Shown one piece after another: positions 1,503 to 19,682 of a DNA stretch of 33,430 nucleotides. A model generated the notes under the pieces. The model searched no databases and was not told where the DNA came from. It worked only from the letters and a program-made list of their open reading frames with translations. The translations under genes and the position numbers were made by a program. Within the stretch, counting starts at the first letter, position 1, and each line of letters starts with the position of its first letter. This stretch comes from a virus, in the IMG/VR virus record IMGVR_UViG_3300020154_000011, positions 1-33,430 of that record; one strand, 5' to 3'.

Positions 1503-3656
1503 TTATGGCCTCTCCTCCTCTCGCTGGTCCGCCGCTGTCGTCGCCGCGCCACCGCGCGCCAACAGGTCGCTAAGCCGCCGGACGTTCGTCTGCCTCGGCT
1601 TTGGTAGCGGCTCAGCCGTAACGCCGGGATTGACGGCCTGGCGGACCGCCTGAACTTCCTTCACCTCCTCACCTGCCTTGGTGGCCACTCGACCGAGCCC
1701 GGTAATCCAGTTCGGCAGCATGGAAGTGAGCGCCTGACCCGTTTCGCTGCGGGCAACATCGCGAACGATGTTTGCAACCTCACCAGCGGTATTTGACGTA
1801 TTCACCCGACTGGCCGCTGGCACTGAGATCAGGTTCTCCGCGACGCGACCCACCCGATACAACTGATCCAGGGTCTTTGGGTTGTCGGCGAATAGCTCCC
1901 TGATGCGCGGGGCGCGGACCGGGTCCTGGAGCATGCGGTTATAGGCAGCCTGGGAGAATTTCCCGGCCTCATCACTGGCGCCGCTGAGTGCCTTGCGCTT
2001 GAGCTCGCCCACCAGGGTGTTCTGGAGAACGGCGACGTTCTCTGCGCCGATCAGCTGCTTGAGACCCTTCAGCTGGGCAACATTTGCGCCTTCGACGAAG
2101 GTCTGGAAGAACTTGTCCGGCTCGCCCTGCTTCGTGCCATCCACAATCGCCTTATATGCCGGGTTCGACTCGATCAGGCCGAAGCGCTGGGCAGCCATTT
2201 GCCGCGCAGCCTTGTACGCATCCATCGACTCCTTACCAATGGCATCATCGATCGGTGCCTCATTGAGCGCCGTGCGCAGCTTGTTGATAGCAAGCTTCGT
2301 TGTGTCATCACTCGATCCCCGCGCCACGCCGCCCCATGCTCGGTCCAGGAACTGGATGGTGTCGACCGTGAGCGGCAGCTTGCCGCTCGTGATGTCGTTG
2401 TACTGGCGTGCAATCGTTTCGGGCAGGTAATCCGCCAGGCTCGTAAGACCTGCTAATTCCGGGTTGCCATTGGTCAGCTGGTTTTTCGCAGCTTCGGCAA
2501 ACCCTTCCGTGCTCACACGAGCAGCCCGGCCGGCTGAGTTTCGAACCTTCGAATAGGCGTCGTTGATCCGATTGCGCAGTTGTTCGTCAATGCCCTGGAT
2601 ATGGCTAATGACGCGCTCGGAGGCGGCATAGGGCGAGGATGCGGCCGACGCTCCCAACTCGTTGAGATTCGCGACCAGCGCTCGATTCTGGGTGGCCAGG
2701 AGATCCGACAGCGGCTCGCCAACGCCACGCTGGCCCGACACACGATGTTCCCAAGCCCATTGCATGGGATCGCGCGAAGCCTGCCCGCGTGTAAGCTGGA
2801 TGGGCACCGGTAGCGCAGCGGCGTCGGCCCGGCGCGTGATCACCTCAGCACTGGGATTCACGCCAGCCCTCAGCGCTTCGCCCACTTCCTGACGAATGGC
2901 CGCGTATACATCCGGGTTGACCTGCGCGTTTCCTGTCGCGGTCTTGGTGACATTCTGCGTGATCTGCTCGGCGGCCTGATCAATTGCCTGTTCGCTCGCG
3001 CTCTTGCCCAAGGCGTTGCGCACCACATTGGCAGCGTACTGGACGGCCGGCTCGAGCAGCTTCACCGCTCCACCCAGCGTGCCGCCTGCACCAGCACCGA
3101 TTACAGCCTGTGTCCCCTTGTCCCAAAGGAAGTTGCCTTCGGTCGCAACCGGCTGAAGCAATGCCTGGAATGCACCGATCTTCGCACCGGCTTTGATGCC
3201 TTCGACCAGCGTCGTCGCTTTGCTTGTCGGCGTGAGCCATGCCGCAGGATTCGCCAATGCGCCCGCCGTACGCCACCAATCGAAGCCTTCACGCCCAGCC
3301 TCCTTTCGGTCTGTCTGATAGTTGCCTTCGCGTTCACGCTGCAATTGATTGAACTCGCCGGTAGAGCGCGGCTCTTCGGCAGCTCGAACAAGATCGTCGG
3401 GCGCGAATGCAGCACTGGCGATGCTGGCACCGGCCTTACGGGCTACATTCATGACCGAATCGGGGAGCACGTTCTGCATCAGCTGTGCAGGGCCGTGGAC
3501 CGTATCGCCAAAGCCCATGCCGGCCGCGCGCTTCCACCAAGGACCCTCTTGCTTGGGCGCCTGGGCTGGCGCGGGCGCAGCCTCATCCGCCAGCAAATCA
3601 TCCAAAGATGCTTTCTGGGATGGATCGTCGGCCAGCAGATCGTCGAGCGCGGCCAT
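1503..3656 (-). CDS. large internal virion / DNA ejection-type protein
   Basis: A 717-residue, alanine-rich and mostly helical protein. It starts with a duplicated acidic motif (ALDDLLADD, then SLDDLLADE, residues ~3-27), a pattern common at the N-terminus of podoviral ejection proteins. The ATG at 3656 overlaps the TAA of the preceding gene by one base. It is the third and longest of three consecutive genes occupying the place of P22 genes 7, 20 and 16, whose products enter the cell with the DNA. A glycine/alanine-rich stretch at residues ~165-200 (AVIGAGAGGTLGGAV) could insert into membrane. By position it is gp16-like; I see no transglycosylase motif. The C-terminus is basic and Ala-rich. 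Confidence 0.7.
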   Translation of the reverse strand: MAALDDLLADDPSQKASLDDLLADEAAPAPAQAPKQEGPWWKRAAGMGFGDTVHGPAQLMQNVLPDSVMNVARKAGASIASAAFAPDDLVRAAEEPRSTGEFNQLQREREGNYQTDRKEAGREGFDWWRTAGALANPAAWLTPTSKATTLVEGIKAGAKIGAFQALLQPVATEGNFLWDKGTQAVIGAGAGGTLGGAVKLLEPAVQYAANVVRNALGKSASEQAIDQAAEQITQNVTKTATGNAQVNPDVYAAIRQEVGEALRAGVNPSAEVITRRADAAALPVPIQLTRGQASRDPMQWAWEHRVSGQRGVGEPLSDLLATQNRALVANLNELGASAASSPYAASERVISHIQGIDEQLRNRINDAYSKVRNSAGRAARVSTEGFAEAAKNQLTNGNPELAGLTSLADYLPETIARQYNDITSGKLPLTVDTIQFLDRAWGGVARGSSDDTTKLAINKLRTALNEAPIDDAIGKESMDAYKAARQMAAQRFGLIESNPAYKAIVDGTKQGEPDKFFQTFVEGANVAQLKGLKQLIGAENVAVLQNTLVGELKRKALSGASDEAGKFSQAAYNRMLQDPVRAPRIRELFADNPKTLDQLYRVGRVAENLISVPAASRVNTSNTAGEVANIVRDVARSETGQALTSMLPNWITGLGRVATKAGEEVKEVQAVRQAVNPGVTAEPLPKPRQTNVRRLSDLLARGGAATTAADQREEERP

Positions 3657-5119
3657 TACTTCATGGCCCCCAATTCACGCAGCGCCTTGAGCTTGTCACG
3701 CAGTGTCGCGCGCTGTTCTGGACTCAGTTTCTTGGCAATTTCCTTCTGTTTGCTCTCGGGCATCGCCTCCAGCTGGAACAGCAACGGGTCATAGGCCTGT
3801 CGCCACTTCGTCTCGAACTCGTGCTGGTTCGTAATCTTGCCTTCGTTCTTCAGCCACTTTTCCTGAGCGTTCCCCTTGGCCTCCATGGCCATCGTCTGAG
3901 CCTTGGCATACTCCAGCACGGCCTGCACAGCGTCGCGTGTGTAGCCAGTGGATGCGTTCTGGCGCGCGATCGACTCGCGGGCCGCATCGGTAGAGGCATT
4001 CGCACCCAGCACGCGAGCGCTATCGGCGGCGATGCGCTCCAGGTATTTGTCGAGCATCTGGAGCTTCGTCGCGTCATCGACTGCCGTGTCAAAGCCAGGC
4101 AAGAATGCAGAGATGGCAGACTCAAAGCTCGCGCGCTTGCGGGCAAAGTCACCACCACCGCCCGTGCTGACGCCTTCGCTGATCTTGAGGGCCTTGTTGA
4201 TCTGGTCAAGTTGCTGAGGCGCAAGAGATGCAGCGATGCGGTTGGCCTCCACATTGCGGAAATTCGATTCAGCCTGCTGCTCGAGTGACTGACGCTCGCC
4301 GGGGCCAAAAGCAGCCGGCCCCTCAATCGGGCGCACCGTCGTGATGTTTCCTCGCGGATCGCGCCGCTGCTCGAACGGATTGCCGAGCTGATCTGTCATC
4401 ACTTGCGACTGCTGGCCCGGCGCGATCGTGAGTGGGATCGATCCGGGCGCTTGCGAGGTTTGCGCGTATGGGTTGACGTTGCGCAGTTCGCTACCGGTGC
4501 TCTGGTACTGCGGAGCCTGCCTGCTCGCCTGATCGCTCGCCGAGGTGGCCTGCAATTGGATGTTCTGCAGAACCTGTCCCATTTTCCCAGGGGGCGCCTT
4601 CATCAGAGGCGCGGCATACGCTTTGACGACGTTCTCTACGTCAGGTCCATACATCGTGATGTACTGACCCAGCATCTGCTCCAGCTTCTGCTTGCCTTCG
4701 GGCGTTCCGTTGACGACATCGGGATCAGATCGAAGCGCGCCGGTCATCTCCGCGAATGACTTCCGCTGTGCATCGGTCAGACTCACCAGCGTCTGCTTTG
4801 CGGCCAGTTGCTGTTGCTTGATCGCTGCGGCCTGCTGCATGGCTTGGGGAAACTGATCACCAGCCGCCTCACGCAACCCGCTATCCATGATCTTGTTCAG
4901 ATCGATGGTCCCGTCATCGCCGGTGAGCTTTGACCAATCGAACGATGCAAGCCCTTCACGCTGGCGCTGAGACTGCTCAGCGGATGCAAGCGCGGTCTTA
5001 TCGGCCTGCACGGCAATGGCCTGACGCTGCATATTCAGCAGCTCAGACAGCTTCCCCATACTGTCCGGCTTGCGACCAGACAGCGGGATAGAGGCATCAA
5101 CTTGCCCGGACTGCGCCAT
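3656..5119 (-). CDS. internal virion / DNA ejection-type protein
   Basis: A 487-residue, Gln/Ala-rich helical protein (many QQ pairs, coiled-coil-like stretches at ~20-120 and ~270-450), with Pro/Gln-rich linkers around residues 195-260. It has no signal peptide or catalytic motif. It lies between the small gp7-like and the large gp16-like proteins and is separated from the former by one base, so by order and composition it corresponds to the middle ejection protein (P22 gp20-like role: release into the envelope ahead of the DNA). Homology is inferred from context and composition rather than from a recognised motif. Confidence 0.65.
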   Translation of the reverse strand: MAQSGQVDASIPLSGRKPDSMGKLSELLNMQRQAIAVQADKTALASAEQSQRQREGLASFDWSKLTGDDGTIDLNKIMDSGLREAAGDQFPQAMQQAAAIKQQQLAAKQTLVSLTDAQRKSFAEMTGALRSDPDVVNGTPEGKQKLEQMLGQYITMYGPDVENVVKAYAAPLMKAPPGKMGQVLQNIQLQATSASDQASRQAPQYQSTGSELRNVNPYAQTSQAPGSIPLTIAPGQQSQVMTDQLGNPFEQRRDPRGNITTVRPIEGPAAFGPGERQSLEQQAESNFRNVEANRIAASLAPQQLDQINKALKISEGVSTGGGGDFARKRASFESAISAFLPGFDTAVDDATKLQMLDKYLERIAADSARVLGANASTDAARESIARQNASTGYTRDAVQAVLEYAKAQTMAMEAKGNAQEKWLKNEGKITNQHEFETKWRQAYDPLLFQLEAMPESKQKEIAKKLSPEQRATLRDKLKALRELGAMK

Positions 5120-5120
5120 G

Positions 5121-6131
5121 TCACGGACCCGTGCCAGGGTTGTTGCGATTCATGTAGGCCCACGCTCCGTAGGCGCCAAGATCACTGAGTGCGCCACCCC
5201 AAGCATTGGCCGCACCGATCTGGCCCGCTGCCGCTGCGTTTGCGCCGCCAACGATGTTCGCGCCGATGTTTCCACCGGTAGCCACGGCCTGATTGCCAAC
5301 CCCTGCCGCTGCGTTCTGCCCCATGCCGGCCATGCTCGTCAGGCGCTGGAAGATGTTTCCTTGCTGCGTCTGGAAGCGGTTGAACGCGTTTCCGTATTCC
5401 TGCGAGGCTGCGCCCTGGTTGTATTCCATGAGCGCTTTGAGTGCGGGGCCCGATAGAGACCCCGACCCAGCTGCAGCAGTGTTCATCACGCCCTGTGCGC
5501 CCTGCTGAAGACGCCACTGATAGCCCGGATCCATGCCAGCCTTGAACTGCTCGGGACCGAATAGCTGCGTCAGGAAGCCGGTGGGTAACCCCGTACTGCC
5601 CTCGGTTGGTAGCTCCCCCGCGCCTGTGCCTTGCGTCGCCTCACCACTGGCATTTGTGCGGGTTCCAGCCAGCTGAGCTGGCGTCGGCATCGTCCAGCCT
5701 GTGTCGTTGATGAATCGGCCGTTCGGGCCTCCCGGGCGTAACGTGCCGATACGCTGACCGCCGTGATGGACTTCGTACCAACCGTTACCGACATCGACCG
5801 TAGTTGTTCCAGGTGGCAAATAGGTGTCGCCTACCAATTGGCCGTTGTTCTCATCCCATTTCGTGCGCTCTTCTGTGCCTGGTGCATTTCCGAGCGCAGT
5901 CTGAGGAGCGATGCCCATCAAGCGGGATAGTTCGGCGTTGGCGCCATAACCACTCTGCATGAATGGCAATTGCTGAGCGCGCGAGATGTCGAACATCTCC
6001 CGGTTCACATCAGCCGCATACGCGGCCCCCTCGCGTTGCGTGCCTGCGGCATCCTTGGCCGCATCGGCTTGTATCGCTGCGGCTCCCAGACCTGCGACGG
6101 CTGCGCCGGCCGCTGCCCACCCGATCGGCAT
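5121..6131 (-). CDS. DNA transfer/ejection protein, P22 gp7-like
   Basis: I place the start at the ATG at 6131, which has GGAGGG seven bases upstream; a longer reading frame would run into the preceding gene. The 336-residue product begins MPIGWAAAGAAVAGLGAAA, an Ala/Gly-rich hydrophobic segment. A helical QADAAKDAAGTQREGAAYA region follows, which is the typical opening of podoviral gp7/gp14-like internal proteins. The C-terminus (residues ~220-325) is again Ala/Gly/Asn rich. Such proteins are packaged in the virion and ejected to form a conduit across the envelope. The gene is followed, after one base, by the second ejection-type gene. Confidence 0.72.
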   Translation of the reverse strand: MPIGWAAAGAAVAGLGAAAIQADAAKDAAGTQREGAAYAADVNREMFDISRAQQLPFMQSGYGANAELSRLMGIAPQTALGNAPGTEERTKWDENNGQLVGDTYLPPGTTTVDVGNGWYEVHHGGQRIGTLRPGGPNGRFINDTGWTMPTPAQLAGTRTNASGEATQGTGAGELPTEGSTGLPTGFLTQLFGPEQFKAGMDPGYQWRLQQGAQGVMNTAAAGSGSLSGPALKALMEYNQGAASQEYGNAFNRFQTQQGNIFQRLTSMAGMGQNAAAGVGNQAVATGGNIGANIVGGANAAAAGQIGAANAWGGALSDLGAYGAWAYMNRNNPGTGP

Positions 6132-6133
6132 CT

Positions 6134-6697
6134 CTATACCCTCCGCTCGGTAAACCGAGTCCGAATGCAGCAAATCATGGTCATGCGCGCGTGCTCGGTT
6201 GGATTCAAAACATGATGCGGTCGCGAATTGTCGAACCAGAAACAGTCGCCCGGCTTTGTTTCGAGCGACTTGTCTTCCACGTAAAAAGCCTGTCCCGGCG
6301 CTGATGCGAGCTGCACCGCGAATTTCTCATAGTGACGCGCGTGCCATCCTCGATCGATGTGCGGATAGCATGTGGCACCCGCCGGCTGTCGAGTGATCAA
6401 CACCATTCCAAGCCGCTCACCCTTTGCCGCGGCCATTACCTGCATCGCAAGGTCATAAGCCGAGGGGATTTGCTCGAGCACATCCCACCACACTGAGTCA
6501 TGCGCTTCGTTGAACGCCTGCCGGTCGCCGGTGAAGTTCTCGCGCGCGTTGTAGCGGACGATGATGTCGTCCATCTCTCGATGCGGTGACTGCGGGTGAT
6601 TAGTCCGCAGGTCGAAGTCATTCCATAGCTCTGGATGCCATGCCAGTTCAGTGACCAGCTGGGTTACATCGAACGTGTACGGCATGAGGCGTAGCAT
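6134..6697 (-). CDS. 2-oxoglutarate/Fe(II) oxygenase, aspartyl/asparaginyl hydroxylase-like
   Basis: The ATG at 6697 overlaps the TGA of the upstream sulfotransferase-like gene (ATGA), giving 187 residues. A jelly-roll core carries the expected ligands: H113-x-D115 in CYPHIDRGW, a distal histidine in SRPHHVLN (H161 or H162), and R171 in ARMTMI placed to bind 2-oxoglutarate. The order YEKFAVQL, F, then GDCFWFDNSRPHH follows the aspartyl/asparaginyl beta-hydroxylase family, which hydroxylates side chains. The substrate is unknown. Its partner gene and its place among tail genes suggest modification of a virion or host molecule. A later internal start (MPYTF, 6685) is possible but lacks the overlap. 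Confidence 0.8.
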   Translation of the reverse strand: MLRLMPYTFDVTQLVTELAWHPELWNDFDLRTNHPQSPHREMDDIIVRYNARENFTGDRQAFNEAHDSVWWDVLEQIPSAYDLAMQVMAAAKGERLGMVLITRQPAGATCYPHIDRGWHARHYEKFAVQLASAPGQAFYVEDKSLETKPGDCFWFDNSRPHHVLNPTEHARMTMICCIRTRFTERRV

Positions 6698-7200
6698 CAG
6701 TGCGCCCTCAACTCGGCCATCAGGCGCGCTGTCGCTGCCTGATTGACGGTGATGCTCTCGTAATGCGGCTGCACGTTGGCCTCGCGAAGCAGCGTCCACC
6801 GCTCGGCATCGAAGGGCTGATCCAGCAAGTATTCATAGATGTACTGAGGACGCTCAAAGAGATCACGCCAGTCCAAGTGCACGCCATTGATTCGGTCCAG
6901 CACCCCGTTCCATTGCTCGCTACACGGCGTCATCCCGATGCGAACCAGCGATGCGTCCACCTCTGCTAAATCCCGATGCAGGATGACTTTGCGGGCCGGA
7001 TGTGCATTTACCCATTCCGGAAACAGTGCAAGGCCGGTGCATGCAACACCAATCCGACGCCGGGACTGAATGCTGTCCAACTGCTCCTTCGACCAGCGCC
7101 ACAACGGATCGTGAAAGCAAAGCGTCGTGTCCGTGGTCAGCCAGTTGCTGGCCCAGGTTGTGCCCGATCTCGGCGCGGCGATGAGCATGAAGTCGATCAT
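6697..7200 (-). CDS. sulfotransferase-family P-loop protein
   Basis: A 167-residue protein. The N-terminal LIAAPRSGTTWASNWL (P-loop PRSGTTW, residues 10-16) is the 5'-phosphosulfate-binding loop of PAPS sulfotransferases. VILHRDLAEVDASL (residues ~72-85) matches the 3'-phosphate-binding RDP-x-S region. It is shorter than typical sulfotransferases (about 250-300 residues), so it is a compact or degenerate member; the Ser in DASL is kept. It is expected to move a sulfuryl group from PAPS to an unknown acceptor. It overlaps the oxygenase gene by ATGA and sits between tail and ejection genes, an unusual place for an enzyme. No strong ribosome site precedes the ATG. Confidence 0.75.
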   Translation of the reverse strand: MIDFMLIAAPRSGTTWASNWLTTDTTLCFHDPLWRWSKEQLDSIQSRRRIGVACTGLALFPEWVNAHPARKVILHRDLAEVDASLVRIGMTPCSEQWNGVLDRINGVHLDWRDLFERPQYIYEYLLDQPFDAERWTLLREANVQPHYESITVNQAATARLMAELRAH

Positions 7201-7202
7201 GG

Positions 7203-7559
7203 CTACATCGGAAAATAGTTAATGGTGGGAGCCACTGAATACGTCACTCGCAATTGATCGCCTCGATCCATCTGGACAAAACCTTCAGTCATGCCAGTGT
7301 CGTACCAATTCGTTCCATCCCTACTGAACTCGATCACAGAAACAGTTCCACCTCCGATGTGAGCTTGGCCGCGAATCACCGCGGTGTATGTCATCGGCGA
7401 TGCGGTGAGCGGGATCACCTCTTCTGGTTGCGGACTGCCCTCAGTCACCGCCAGATAGAGGTTGTAGAAAAAGATGTACCAATCCTTTTGAGCAATCGCC
7501 CCCTGCGCCACGATTGGCGTCTGGTTGCGAGTCATGGCAAAACGGGCGCGAAGGCTCAT
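7203..7559 (-). CDS. small beta-rich virion-module protein, function unknown
   Basis: A 118-residue protein whose ATG overlaps the TGA of the gp10-like gene (ATGA). The sequence is rich in beta-forming residues, with a C-terminal EFSRDGTNWYDTG and a DRGDQLRVTY segment resembling small beta-sandwich or carbohydrate-binding-like folds. There are no catalytic motifs, membrane segments or signal peptide. Being translationally coupled to the tail-neck gene, it is probably a tail or decoration component, but this is inference from position only. Confidence 0.7.
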   Translation of the reverse strand: MSLRARFAMTRNQTPIVAQGAIAQKDWYIFFYNLYLAVTEGSPQPEEVIPLTASPMTYTAVIRGQAHIGGGTVSVIEFSRDGTNWYDTGMTEGFVQMDRGDQLRVTYSVAPTINYFPM

Positions 7560-9265
7560 GCGTTACCCGTCTCGCTGGGCAGTTGATACAGCGTCGCGCC
7601 GACGACATCCCGATTCACGGGATCGCTGACACGGACCTCGTAGACGCGATCGAAGTACCGACCGAGACGGCGCCATATCGCACGATTCTTGAACTGGCCT
7701 GCTTTGCCCAGCGTCGCCCAGTGCTCTGTTCCAAAGGTCGTTCCACCGTCATTCGACCAGCGGAGCATCGCCTGCGGATTTGAGCCCTGGCCCGTCTGAC
7801 GGCCGACGCCGGGCGAGAACTCGATTTGCAATGCTGTACTCGCCGAGCGCTTGCGGTCTTCCCGGCTCCAGACGTGTGGGCATCGGCGGATGGAAATCAG
7901 CGGCGCGCCGGCGTCGGTGAAGTACTGCCGGGACATCTGATGGATCTGACCGGACTGGTAATCCCCAACCAGCCGCAGATTCTGGAAGTTCATGAAGCAA
8001 TTCGAGCGATGCCGATGGAACTGACCCGTGGTCTGGTCATACGACAATCGCTCGTGCCAATTGCCGTTCGAATCCCAGCACCACGTTTTATCTGCCGTGG
8101 GGAACGTGAGGACGTAGAAGAGATGCCCCTCTTCCTCGTAGGCATAGGCAAACGCATCTGCGACCAGGGGATAGCTCGAGATCGCATGTTCGACGCCGTG
8201 CTGGCTGACACGCTTCCAGGAATACTGCTGCGTTTGGACGACGATGTTCTCGCCCTGGAGCGTCCGACCGAGCCACATGAGGCTGTCGCCGGCCTGGGTG
8301 ATGGATTGAGGCGCAGATGTTCCAATCGGAGGCGCAGCGCCCGGAATGCGCTGAAACGCAAAGTTTGCGCCGCCTGCGTTGAACCAGATTTCCGAGGCGC
8401 GCTCGCCGACCAACCACAGTTCGCGGTTGAGTTCCTGCAAGCCTTGCAGGTTATCGCTCTGGCTGTCCTTCAACGCAAAGAACAGCGGATCGAAGATCAT
8501 CGTGTAGGGAACAGGTGAGCTCGTCGCAAACGCCTGAGAGCCCACGCGATTGACGATCAACCAACCATCGATGAACGCAATATGAGAAGGCGGCTCGAAG
8601 CCCGGATCGGAGATCACGCCAAACTCGGCGAGCATGATTGTGATCGTCGTGGCACCGGGCGAGCTCGTCGCCGCCTGCGACATCGTCACAGTGTTGGCGC
8701 TGGTGTTGATGGACGTGATCGTCGTGCCAGGCGCAATTCCCGAGCCGCTGATCTCACTGCCACAGACCAGAGCCGTGTTCAGCGATCCAGAGTAAGGAAG
8801 CGTCGTGCTGCCACTCGTCGGCGTGCCTGTGAACTGCGTGGATCCTGGCCCGGCAATGCGGTAATAGTAGCCGTTCAGGCCATCGACCAGCATCGCATAG
8901 CCGCCCTCGCCATTATCACGGATGCGGACCTGCCCGCTGTTGGTGTTGAGCGTGCCAACGAGCTGTGTTGAGAACTGAGCAATGGCATTTTGCGTTGGCG
9001 GGACGGTGACGGTGATGACATGGACCTCATCGCCAGCAACGGCAATTGCCTGCTGATTTCCAGGCAACACCCATGCACCGCGAATGGCTGCGGGATCGAA
9101 CGTGATGACAGGATTCAACCCGGGGCAGCCGAGCAACGTCGTCGGCATCTTGGACTTATTGTCGCCGGACACTTCCACATACCAGTTGATCAGTCGCTGA
9201 GCATCCTGATATGGGTTCGGCGCATCATAGGCTTGGCCGACGAATCCGAAGTCAGAGCCGGGCAC
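7556..9265 (-). CDS. tail hub / packaged-DNA stabilisation protein, P22 gp10-like
   Basis: A 569-residue protein starting with GTG at 9265, which overlaps the TAG of the gp4-like gene by one base. The N-terminal QRLINWYVE, then LLGCPGLNPV, is characteristic of the P22 gp10 stabilisation family. Later DGWLIVNR, FDPLFFA, LQELNRELWLVGERASEIWFN and a long stretch of beta blades agree with the propeller-like body of that family. gp10 closes the portal channel after packaging and receives the needle or spike. Residues ~142-212 are an extra Gly/Thr/Ser-rich beta module (SGIAPGTTI, NTVTMSQAAT) that also occurs in the neighbouring gp4-like protein; it is absent from my recollection of P22 gp10. Confidence 0.85.
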   Translation of the reverse strand: MPGSDFGFVGQAYDAPNPYQDAQRLINWYVEVSGDNKSKMPTTLLGCPGLNPVITFDPAAIRGAWVLPGNQQAIAVAGDEVHVITVTVPPTQNAIAQFSTQLVGTLNTNSGQVRIRDNGEGGYAMLVDGLNGYYYRIAGPGSTQFTGTPTSGSTTLPYSGSLNTALVCGSEISGSGIAPGTTITSINTSANTVTMSQAATSSPGATTITIMLAEFGVISDPGFEPPSHIAFIDGWLIVNRVGSQAFATSSPVPYTMIFDPLFFALKDSQSDNLQGLQELNRELWLVGERASEIWFNAGGANFAFQRIPGAAPPIGTSAPQSITQAGDSLMWLGRTLQGENIVVQTQQYSWKRVSQHGVEHAISSYPLVADAFAYAYEEEGHLFYVLTFPTADKTWCWDSNGNWHERLSYDQTTGQFHRHRSNCFMNFQNLRLVGDYQSGQIHQMSRQYFTDAGAPLISIRRCPHVWSREDRKRSASTALQIEFSPGVGRQTGQGSNPQAMLRWSNDGGTTFGTEHWATLGKAGQFKNRAIWRRLGRYFDRVYEVRVSDPVNRDVVGATLYQLPSETGNA

Positions 9266-17911: not shown

Positions 17912-18101
17912 CTAGATGGCCACTGTGCTCAATGGCGCTGAGATCCGGGAGCGACTTGCGCAAGAGAATCTGAATGGCCGTCACCTGGGACTTGCTCAGG
18001 TCCAGCTTGCCAAGTGCATGATCCGTCAAGCGCCGCACGAGCATACTGGTCTGAATGCGCTGACGCACTTTGTCGGGGGTCCACGCCCCTCGTTGAGCCA
18101 T
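17796..18101 (-). CDS. terS: probable terminase small subunit
   Basis: The ATG at 18101 has GGAG seven bases upstream, giving 101 residues. AWTPDKVRQRIQTSMLVRRLTDHALGKLDLSKSQVTAIQILLRKSLPDL is a helical region with a helix-turn-helix-like pattern. The C-terminus is rich in Gly, Pro and Glu. Size, position and overlap with terL all fit a small terminase subunit, which binds the packaging site. The 116-bp out-of-frame overlap with terL is longer than usual. It also begins inside the HNH gene's reading frame, so this short region is read in three frames. Confidence 0.75.
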   Translation of the reverse strand: MAQRGAWTPDKVRQRIQTSMLVRRLTDHALGKLDLSKSQVTAIQILLRKSLPDLSAIEHSGHLDVRRPEELTDAELADIASGRGNGAVGPAQCPEEPGEVH

Positions 18102-18582
18102 GATCAATCTCCAATATCCAATGGGCGAATTGCTTGAGCTGGCCTGCTGTCGCATTGCTCTTCATGCGATTGGCCAGATAGCTGATCACACGGACATTGC
18201 CCTTGACGTAACCGAGTGAGCTATCGATGCGATCCACGCTTGCGCTTTGATCGCGGCCAATCTTGCCTTTGCTGGGGCGCAGTTCAAAACCAAATACGGG
18301 GCAATGCGTGGGGACTTGAATGTCCTGGGGCTCTAGGTTGAACTCAAGGCCGTTACGCTTAGCGCGAGTCCGGCATTCCAGGAATAGATACCAAGCAACA
18401 TTCTGTTTGCGCTTCGCCGATCGATATTGATTGTAGTAATCAGCCCTGGCAGCCACATGGACTTTGTTGTAGGCACGAACGCAGGATTTGCATTCAGCAG
18501 CACGTCCGCTGCTCTTAGAGCGGTTTCTGGCGAATGCCTCAATAGGCTGCTCTACTTTGCACTTCCAGCATACCTTCGTCAC
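17929..18582 (-). CDS. HNH-type endonuclease with N-terminal zinc finger
   Basis: GTG at 18582 overlaps the previous TGA (GTGA). Residues 5-34 hold a four-cysteine finger (C5-x2-C8 and C31-x2-C34). Residues ~93-143 are HNH-like: HCPVFGFEL, then SVDRIDSSLGYVKGNV and SYLANRMKSN, a block common in phage HNH nucleases. The recognisable domain ends near residue 160, exactly where the terS gene starts. The last ~57 residues are read out of frame through terS, look like random translation, and may be a read-through tail without function. HNH proteins beside terminases can help cut concatemers; it could equally be a freestanding homing nuclease. Confidence 0.75.
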   Translation of the reverse strand: MTKVCWKCKVEQPIEAFARNRSKSSGRAAECKSCVRAYNKVHVAARADYYNQYRSAKRKQNVAWYLFLECRTRAKRNGLEFNLEPQDIQVPTHCPVFGFELRPSKGKIGRDQSASVDRIDSSLGYVKGNVRVISYLANRMKSNATAGQLKQFAHWILEIDHGSTRGVDPRQSASAHSDQYARAALDGSCTWQAGPEQVPGDGHSDSLAQVAPGSQRH

Positions 18583-18791
18583 AGCGCCACCACCTCCGGC
18601 CCATACACCAGCGCCATATACCCGTGAGCCTGGAGCCGGCCATCGCTCATGGGCTCGAATCGCACAGCCTTGCAGCCGTTGTTACGCAGGACACGCTGAA
18701 TGTCAGTGCGCTCGGCTTCGGTGTCGGAGCCACGCAGGATGACGTATTCGCCGGTGCGCAGTTGGGGCGGTGGCGTGGGAAGGAGGTTCAT
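18579..18791 (-). CDS. small protein between two HNH genes, function unknown
   Basis: A 70-residue protein whose ATG (18791) overlaps the upstream TGA and whose TGA overlaps the next GTG, so it is locked into the operon at both ends. The start MNLLPTPPPQLRTGEYVILRGSD is followed by an alternating helix/strand pattern with TDIQRVLRNNGCKAVRF and LQAHGYMALVYG. The layout suggests a small alpha/beta domain. No family recognised. It is sandwiched between two endonuclease genes and may have belonged next to the GroES-like gene before the HNH gene arrived. Confidence 0.65.
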   Translation of the reverse strand: MNLLPTPPPQLRTGEYVILRGSDTEAERTDIQRVLRNNGCKAVRFEPMSDGRLQAHGYMALVYGPEVVAL

Positions 18792-19297
18792 GCGGCCTTC
18801 CATGTTTGTCCAAGAACGATGCGACTCACGGTGCCCTGTTTCACGCCGTAAGCCATCCCAATGCTCCTTTGGGTTTCACCCTTCGCATATCGTTCACGAA
18901 TTTCTGAAACGATCGCTCGGGTAAGCTTTGCAGTTGGGACCAACTCGCCAGTGCGCAAAGTCCCATGCACACGTTTGTCATTATGGTTATCTACAAGGGT
19001 AGTCCACCGGAGATTTGTGAAGTGATTGTTGAACTTTCGCCCATCGTTATGGGCCACGCACTCCATGCCTTCCGGACAATCACCGTGAAATGCGATAGCA
19101 ACAAGCCGATGCACCAAGCACGCTTTCCTTTTGCCACGCGGCCCAAGCCATACGAGCAGATAGCCTGAACTCCCAGGACGGGGCTTTATGATTTGCCCAG
19201 CACGGGTTCCATGCCCTACAGACTCAACCCTTCGGACATCACCGAATTCGGAAATCTCATAAGCTGGAAAGCCAGGACAACTACGCCACTGCATCAT
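18788..19297 (-). CDS. HNH homing endonuclease with NUMOD4 domain
   Basis: I take the ATG at 19297, giving 169 residues; an alternative ATG at 19312 adds five. Residues ~3-30 (MQWRSCPGFPAYEISEFGDVRRV) are a NUMOD4 DNA-binding module. Residues ~55-110 form an HNH_3 domain: VHRLVAIAFHG, VAHNDGRKFNN, NLRWTTLVDN, with the central H-N-N arrangement. The C-terminal ~50 residues (LTRAIVSEIRERYAKG and QRSIGMAYGVKQGTVSRIV) are a helix-turn-helix. This three-part layout is classical for freestanding homing endonucleases in phages. It overlaps the 3' end of the GroES-like gene by 17 bp, as expected for an element inserted at a gene end. Confidence 0.85.
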   Translation of the reverse strand: MMQWRSCPGFPAYEISEFGDVRRVESVGHGTRAGQIIKPRPGSSGYLLVWLGPRGKRKACLVHRLVAIAFHGDCPEGMECVAHNDGRKFNNHFTNLRWTTLVDNHNDKRVHGTLRTGELVPTAKLTRAIVSEIRERYAKGETQRSIGMAYGVKQGTVSRIVLGQTWKAA

Positions 19298-19682
19298 AGG
19301 TAAAACAAACATCCTGCTCTTGAACTATCAAAAAAGTCTCAGTCCCAATTGTCACTTGGGGAAATGAATATCCAGCCCCCTCGTACACATTGAGCCCACC
19401 CAGTTCGACGATGTCGCCCACCTTCACCTGCGTTGGGATGAAATGGCTCGTTTCGACGTAGTCGCGCTTGCCGCCTGCTTTGTTTCGATATCGGCGATAC
19501 AAGCGACCAGGCCCCACGGATACAACTTCACCGCGCAAGGGCCGGCCACTCCGAACGACTGTGAGTATTGTCGAGGGCTCCCAGTCGAGGGGGCGAAGGA
19601 GCAGGCGGTCTCGAAGCATTCGAAGCCTCGTTCCACCAGGGAGGATATCGGCAGATGCGGCAAAGCTGACTCCCGCGCTCAT
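19281..19682 (-). CDS. GroES-like co-chaperonin
   Basis: ATG at 19682 overlaps the previous TGA (TGATG); 133 residues. The core follows GroES order: RMLRDRLLLRPLDW (residues ~21-34), a mobile-loop-like STILTVVRSG, RGEVVSVGPG (50-59), VKVGDIVELGG (86-96), and a terminal TFLIVQEQDVCF. It is longer than host GroES (97 residues), with an insert at ~60-85 (YRRYRNKAGGKRDYVETSH). By analogy with T4 gp31 it may cap host GroEL to fold a phage protein, perhaps the coat, since P22-type coats depend on GroEL. The mobile loop that contacts GroEL is not conserved at the IVL level, so GroEL binding is inferred. Confidence 0.75.
   Translation of the reverse strand: MSAGVSFAASADILPGGTRLRMLRDRLLLRPLDWEPSTILTVVRSGRPLRGEVVSVGPGRLYRRYRNKAGGKRDYVETSHFIPTQVKVGDIVELGGLNVYEGAGYSFPQVTIGTETFLIVQEQDVCFTYDAVA

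Follow-up and report, generated by a model that had tools for sequence, protein, structure and literature searches.

Contents of a variable enzyme slot upstream of a phage gp7-like ejection gene covary with the first residues of the ejection protein

The position before the first ejection gene

Phages P22 and T7 each carry a gene directly before their gp7/gp14-type ejection gene, at an equivalent position. P22 gene 14 is annotated as head morphogenesis and as DUF2824 'unknown function', and T7 gene 13 (PF11090) as a 'probable scaffold protein'. An acetyltransferase occupies this slot in Lessievirus JC1 (PMC9144972). One publication lists phage sulfotransferases and 2-oxoglutarate (2OG) oxygenases among auxiliary metabolic genes whose function is unclear (PMC10580990), and no description of the cassette analyzed here was found in the open-access literature. 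The ejection proteins themselves begin in various ways: P22 gp7 starts with MLYAF and, according to its annotation, has 20 N-terminal residues cleaved off by the host protease OpdA, and T7 gp14, which starts with MCWAAA, adds further variety.

The window studied here is the whole of IMG/VR record IMGVR_UViG_3300020154_000011, 33,430 bases. Its late operon runs on the minus strand through terminase, portal, scaffold, coat, head-completion genes, gp10, a 118-aa protein, a sulfotransferase-like gene (SULT) and an oxygenase gene (2OG), and continues downstream into a gp7-like ejection gene, genes at the gp20 and gp16 positions, and a tail gene (Table 1). Both enzyme ORFs were confirmed on the minus strand at the positions given in the initial annotation, as were their neighbors, a gp10/Hc3 protein (phrog_578) and a DNA ejection protein (phrog_598). 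For 2OG, the ATG at 6697 is preferred over the longest-ORF start at 6799, which makes the SULT stop and the 2OG start overlap by one base (TGATG). The gp7 start at 6131 lies two bases past the 2OG stop, and two bases separate the small gene from SULT. With this one-base overlap and these two-base gaps, translation is probably coupled along the entire stretch as a single unit. Elsewhere in the window, ORFs at 17929-18582 and 18788-19312, beside the terminase genes, resemble HNH/NUMOD homing endonucleases.

Table 1. Features of the cassette and its flanking genes in the window
Feature	Coordinates	Strand	Basis
P-loop sulfotransferase-like enzyme (SULT), 167 aa, phrog_10855	6697..7200	-	motifs, fold, relatives
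Fe(II)/2OG oxygenase (2OG), PF05118, 187 aa; closest in fold to solved proline hydroxylases and AspH	6134..6697	-	
gp7-like DNA ejection protein, begins M-P-I-G-W; proposed substrate	5121..6131	-	phrog_598, E 3.7e-21
Pro2 codon of the gp7-like gene (CCG); residue covarying with slot enzymes	6126..6128	-	
Small 118-aa protein, gp10 on one side and the cassette on the other	7203..7559	-	
gp10-like head closure protein Hc3; bounds the slot upstream	7556..9265	-	phrog_578, E 5.5e-92
gp20-position ejection protein	3656..5119	-	gene order
gp16-position ejection protein	1503..3656	-	gene order

P22 gene 14 and T7 gene 13 are flanked in the same way as the cassette, by the tail/head-completion genes on one side and the first ejection gene on the other, but they belong to families other than the slot enzymes and, as far as compared, have position alone in common with them. 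Single-sequence hhalign of P22 gp14 and T7 gp13 against GNAT proteins of the slot gave probabilities of 0.3 and 0.1 percent, with no relation detected. Pseudomonas phage PfAn1 and Lessievirus DC1/JC1 come closer in having a GNAT enzyme in the same slot, together with a 2OG in PfAn1; they differ in being without a sulfotransferase and in their gp7-position proteins, which start with MVAAA (PfAn1) and MLENA (DC1). The earlier statement that P22-type clusters carry no such enzymes here therefore does not stand, since this very position is that of P22 gene 14 and T7 gene 13, and both the DC1 acetyltransferase and the PfAn1 pair are enzymes within it.

Identity of the two enzymes

The window SULT carries the motifs PRSGTTW and HRD...S. 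Across 59 relatives, P10, R11, W16 and H30 are kept in all. In the P-loop (P-R/K-S-G-T-T-W), which binds the 5'-phosphosulfate, P, R and W are found in 59/59, S in 57/59 and G in 53/59, and in the 3'-phosphate-binding loop R76 is present in 57/59 and S84 in 55/59. Against the Pfam sulfotransferase profile the window protein scores 15.9 bits, where the curated cut-off is 27; 28 of the 59 relatives match PF13469 (Sulfotransfer_3) at E <= 0.01, the best at 4e-6. The phrog_10855 family that contains it is annotated 'hydrolase'. The AlphaFold model (pLDDT 95.9) is most similar to tyrosylprotein sulfotransferases with PAP (TPST2-PAP; Z 10.1, 3.2 A, 144 residues aligned), and the first ten rows of the fold comparison are all sulfotransferases, followed by P-loop kinases at Z 9.3. 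Because small P-loop kinases trail by no more than about one Z unit, the assignment is carried by the motifs and not by fold alone. From motifs and model we infer a PAPS-dependent sulfotransferase, which bears out the initial annotation. It shares with TPST1/2 and bacterial sulfotransferases the 5' P-loop PRSGTTW, the Arg and Ser of the 3'-phosphate loop and the overall fold, but is shorter (167 aa), about 12 % identical, and below the Pfam cut-offs in the window member.

Named phages with SULT relatives are mostly Pseudomonas siphophages, and in the two inspected, PaMx28 and PaMx25, the relative sits outside any ejection module. At one locus (L022:6406-7008), a complete SULT gene is immediately preceded by an ORF that starts as SULT, up to and including the P-loop (MVEFMLLAAPRSGTTW), and continues as an HNH-type homing endonuclease; the endonuclease element is seemingly placed at the P-loop codons. 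Burkholderia phage DC1 has a gene for PAPS reductase (L418:7442-8164) right after a virion gene of gp7 size, in the same module that holds the PAPS-type sulfotransferase in other phages.

The assignment of the second gene to the iron/2OG oxygenases, made earlier on its full HxD...H...R set, was likewise upheld. The window protein carries HID...H...R and scores 30.9 bits against PF05118 (cut-off 22.6), a profile matched at E <= 0.01 by 53/53 relatives; the metal triad H113, D115 and H161 is present in 53/53 of these and the distal R171 in 52/53. With such conservation in the relatives of both proteins, a chance origin of the motifs is dismissed. In a profile search of the PDB, proline hydroxylases ranked best (1e5r, E 3e-6; 4p7w, 2e-5), with AspH lower (0.003). 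The AlphaFold model (pLDDT 96.4) has the double-stranded beta-helix fold, with Z 14-15 to known members, and its top Foldseek match is L-proline cis-4-hydroxylase 4p7w with bound L-proline (E 3e-9, TMq 0.68). Z does not separate proline 3-hydroxylase from a nucleoside hydroxylase and AspH, and the modelled fold would also fit Asp/Asn- or nucleoside-hydroxylating enzymes. Together with the Pro2 covariation described below, sequence and model point indirectly to a likely N-terminal prolyl hydroxylase. With 4p7w, 1e5r and AspH (5jqy), its best sequence and fold matches, it shares the PF05118-type Fe/2OG beta-helix and HxD..H..R; it differs in size (~187 aa), identity (11-18 %), its phage origin within an ejection operon, and the proposed substrate, a protein N-terminus in place of free proline or EGF domains.

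Slot contents and residue 2 of the ejection protein

Surveying IMG/VR allowed us to compare the content of this slot across viruses. Each scan retained its best 80 matches and much of the sampling was seeded with the enzymes, with a gp7-only scan serving as the unselected baseline for slot content. The SULT and 2OG pair, whose co-occurrence elsewhere had been proposed as a check, was found in approximately 25 virus clusters with the gene order running both ways; IMG/VR loci share the order of the window (gp10, small gene, SULT, 2OG, gp7). 2OG was present in 13 of 20 SULT-sampled clusters versus 7 of 62 gp7-sampled clusters (p 7e-6). Among 202 clusters, in counts that mirror how loci were sampled, the slot held GNAT+2OG (77), cupin (33), cupin+2OG (28), SULT+2OG (25), 2OG (8, three with GNAT on inspection; L361, L376 and L397 were reassigned as GNAT-carrying), SULT (7), GNAT (3), GNAT+SULT (1) or none of these (20). 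SULT and cupin were never seen in one slot in these 202 clusters. In many short-tailed phages, then, the slot is a variable position upstream of the gp7-like gene, filled by small exchangeable enzymes, 2OG plus SULT, cupin or GNAT.

Few named phages have the 2OG: in MW202665 it immediately precedes the gp7-like gene, in PfAn1 the order is 2OG, GNAT, gp7, and in DC33 2OG and GNAT lie between terminase and portal. A cultured host is available for the prophage locus of Lysobacter gilvus HX-5-24 (L176), which has 2OG, SULT and gp7. At another locus (L111:859-1944), a group-1 glycosyltransferase is located inside the slot, immediately upstream of SULT and 2OG. One phage contig (L013:4782-8080) holds two acetyltransferase-like and several 2OG-oxygenase-like genes in tandem, adjoined by a radical-SAM-like gene.

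Aligning the ejection proteins revealed that their second residue follows the content of the slot. Start codons of gp7 were picked by ribosome-binding-site score, blind to the residue, and doubtful starts were read by hand; automatic calls were wrong for L046, L097, L153, L156, L179 and L323, and L121 was excluded as it has no ATG at its PWAAA terminus. Proline is the second residue in 57/57 readable clusters with 2OG and without GNAT, compared with 12/144 of the other clusters (without 2OG, or with GNAT). In the former group gp7 begins M-P, then W, F or x-G-W/Y. With GNAT it mostly has Val2 (MVAAA) or a leader and then VAAA, Pro2 being almost absent. Where cupin is the only slot enzyme, residue 2 is S, P, A or T, and loci without any slot enzyme mostly have G. 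Slot class shares more excess mutual information with residue 2 than with any other of the 214 well-filled columns of gp7 (0.90 bits, z 21.6), residue 3 following at 0.55 bits and the remainder at 0.40 or less.

As the rule had been suggested by the first loci, it was tested on two new scans, in which Pro2 was present in 17/17 clusters with 2OG and without GNAT and in 0/66 with GNAT. On a gp7 tree that omits the first residues, a weak tree from a short low-complexity alignment, 24 of 27 edge-disjoint pairs agree with the rule and none oppose it; leaving out three pairs involving loci later found to carry GNAT, 23 of 24 are concordant and again none opposed. Residue 2 of the next gene, taken as a control, showed no enrichment with 2OG (Pro in 7/48 with, 12/54 without). 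Among 2OG loci, those with SULT did not differ from those without it at the gp7 N-terminus, and only scattered weak columns came out elsewhere; gp7 in some SULT-only loci lacks Pro2 (MFGAI, MAWMA). In 2OG+GNAT phages the 2OG is kept and Pro2 is absent, so Pro2 cannot be the sole target of the 2OG family.

Possible explanations for the covariation

Our main reading, to which we give a probability of roughly 0.5, is that the late, translationally coupled cassette acts on the gp7-like ejection protein before packaging, with 2OG hydroxylating Pro2. Methionine aminopeptidase removes Met before small residues, proline included. The host enzyme should cleave Met1 of gp7 and free an N-terminal Pro2, which 2OG would then hydroxylate ahead of packaging; we propose N-terminal prolyl hydroxylation because a free N-terminal proline resembles the substrate of the nearest-fold enzymes. 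The predicted PAPS-dependent SULT may act on gp7 or on a nearby virion protein. It could sulfate the new hydroxyl, which we regard only as a possibility given that SULT leaves no mark on gp7 and that SULT-only loci occur without Pro2. A full two-step pathway at the gp7 N-terminus, in which 2OG makes hydroxyproline, SULT sulfates it, and cupin or acetyltransferase partners serve the same step in related phages, is doubtful; if true, it would make the P22 gene 14/T7 gene 13 position a general station for N-terminal processing of ejection proteins. In GNAT phages, the Val2 or leader-VAAA terminus may be acetylated at the N-terminal Val, and in other phages a cupin protein would replace SULT as the partner of 2OG. 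What the phage gains may concern how the ejection pore is loaded, inserted into the membrane or stabilized. We infer catalysis, substrate, reaction order and infection benefit alike.

A less probable but serious explanation is that the enzymes modify another virion protein, a glycan or a small molecule, and that the gp7 N-terminus merely tracks them through block exchange. Synteny is tight, slot and gp7 pass down together as one block, SULT relatives occur in other genomic contexts, and loci such as L111 have a glycosyltransferase in the slot. Against it stand the excess of residue 2 over all other gp7 columns, the concordant tree pairs and a next gene without such a link. It is unlikely that the pair modifies LPS, lipid A or capsule in the host envelope at a late stage of infection and so alters re-adsorption or superinfection. 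The lipid A hydroxylase LpxO belongs to PF05118 and sulfotransferases can act on glycans, but nothing ties the pair to envelope genes; it is embedded in a late virion operon, and the enzyme set tracks the gp7 terminus. Of the modifications first suggested for the pair, that of a virion protein is favored, with the Pro2 covariation pointing to the gp7 N-terminus, and an effect on adsorption or superinfection has no direct support.

A non-catalytic role is equally improbable. In this view, enzyme folds have been co-opted in the slot to help the ejection proteins assemble, a task that P22 gp14 and T7 gp13 might also have. The slot proteins share their position with the annotated head morphogenesis and 'probable scaffold' genes, but a pure scaffold would not need the almost invariant metal-, 2OG- and PAPS-binding residues. 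Hypermodification of DNA bases by oxygenase and sulfotransferase, in line with a mention of sulfotransferase-based nucleotide modification in phages (PMC10829341), is very improbable and was rejected, as there are no supporting neighbors, the oxygenase matches PF05118 and groups with proline/aspartyl hydroxylases, and both genes lie within the virion operon.

The slot enzyme set predicts how the neighboring ejection protein begins, an association suggesting that the phage may chemically finish its own injection machinery. With enzymes that look catalytically intact and that go with particular opening residues of the downstream protein, the role of this position becomes directly testable through the mass of one peptide, and some phage sulfotransferases and 2OG oxygenases would gain a concrete candidate substrate in the virion.

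Two further features were observed in gp7-like proteins. In three loci with GNAT (L162, L164 and L212), a charged leader (e.g. MFEWKRKLLPLSGPQ) precedes VAAA and is reminiscent of the OpdA-cleaved leader of P22 gp7. In two others (L024 and L107), the C-terminal end resembles a tail-spike intramolecular chaperone (S74-like).
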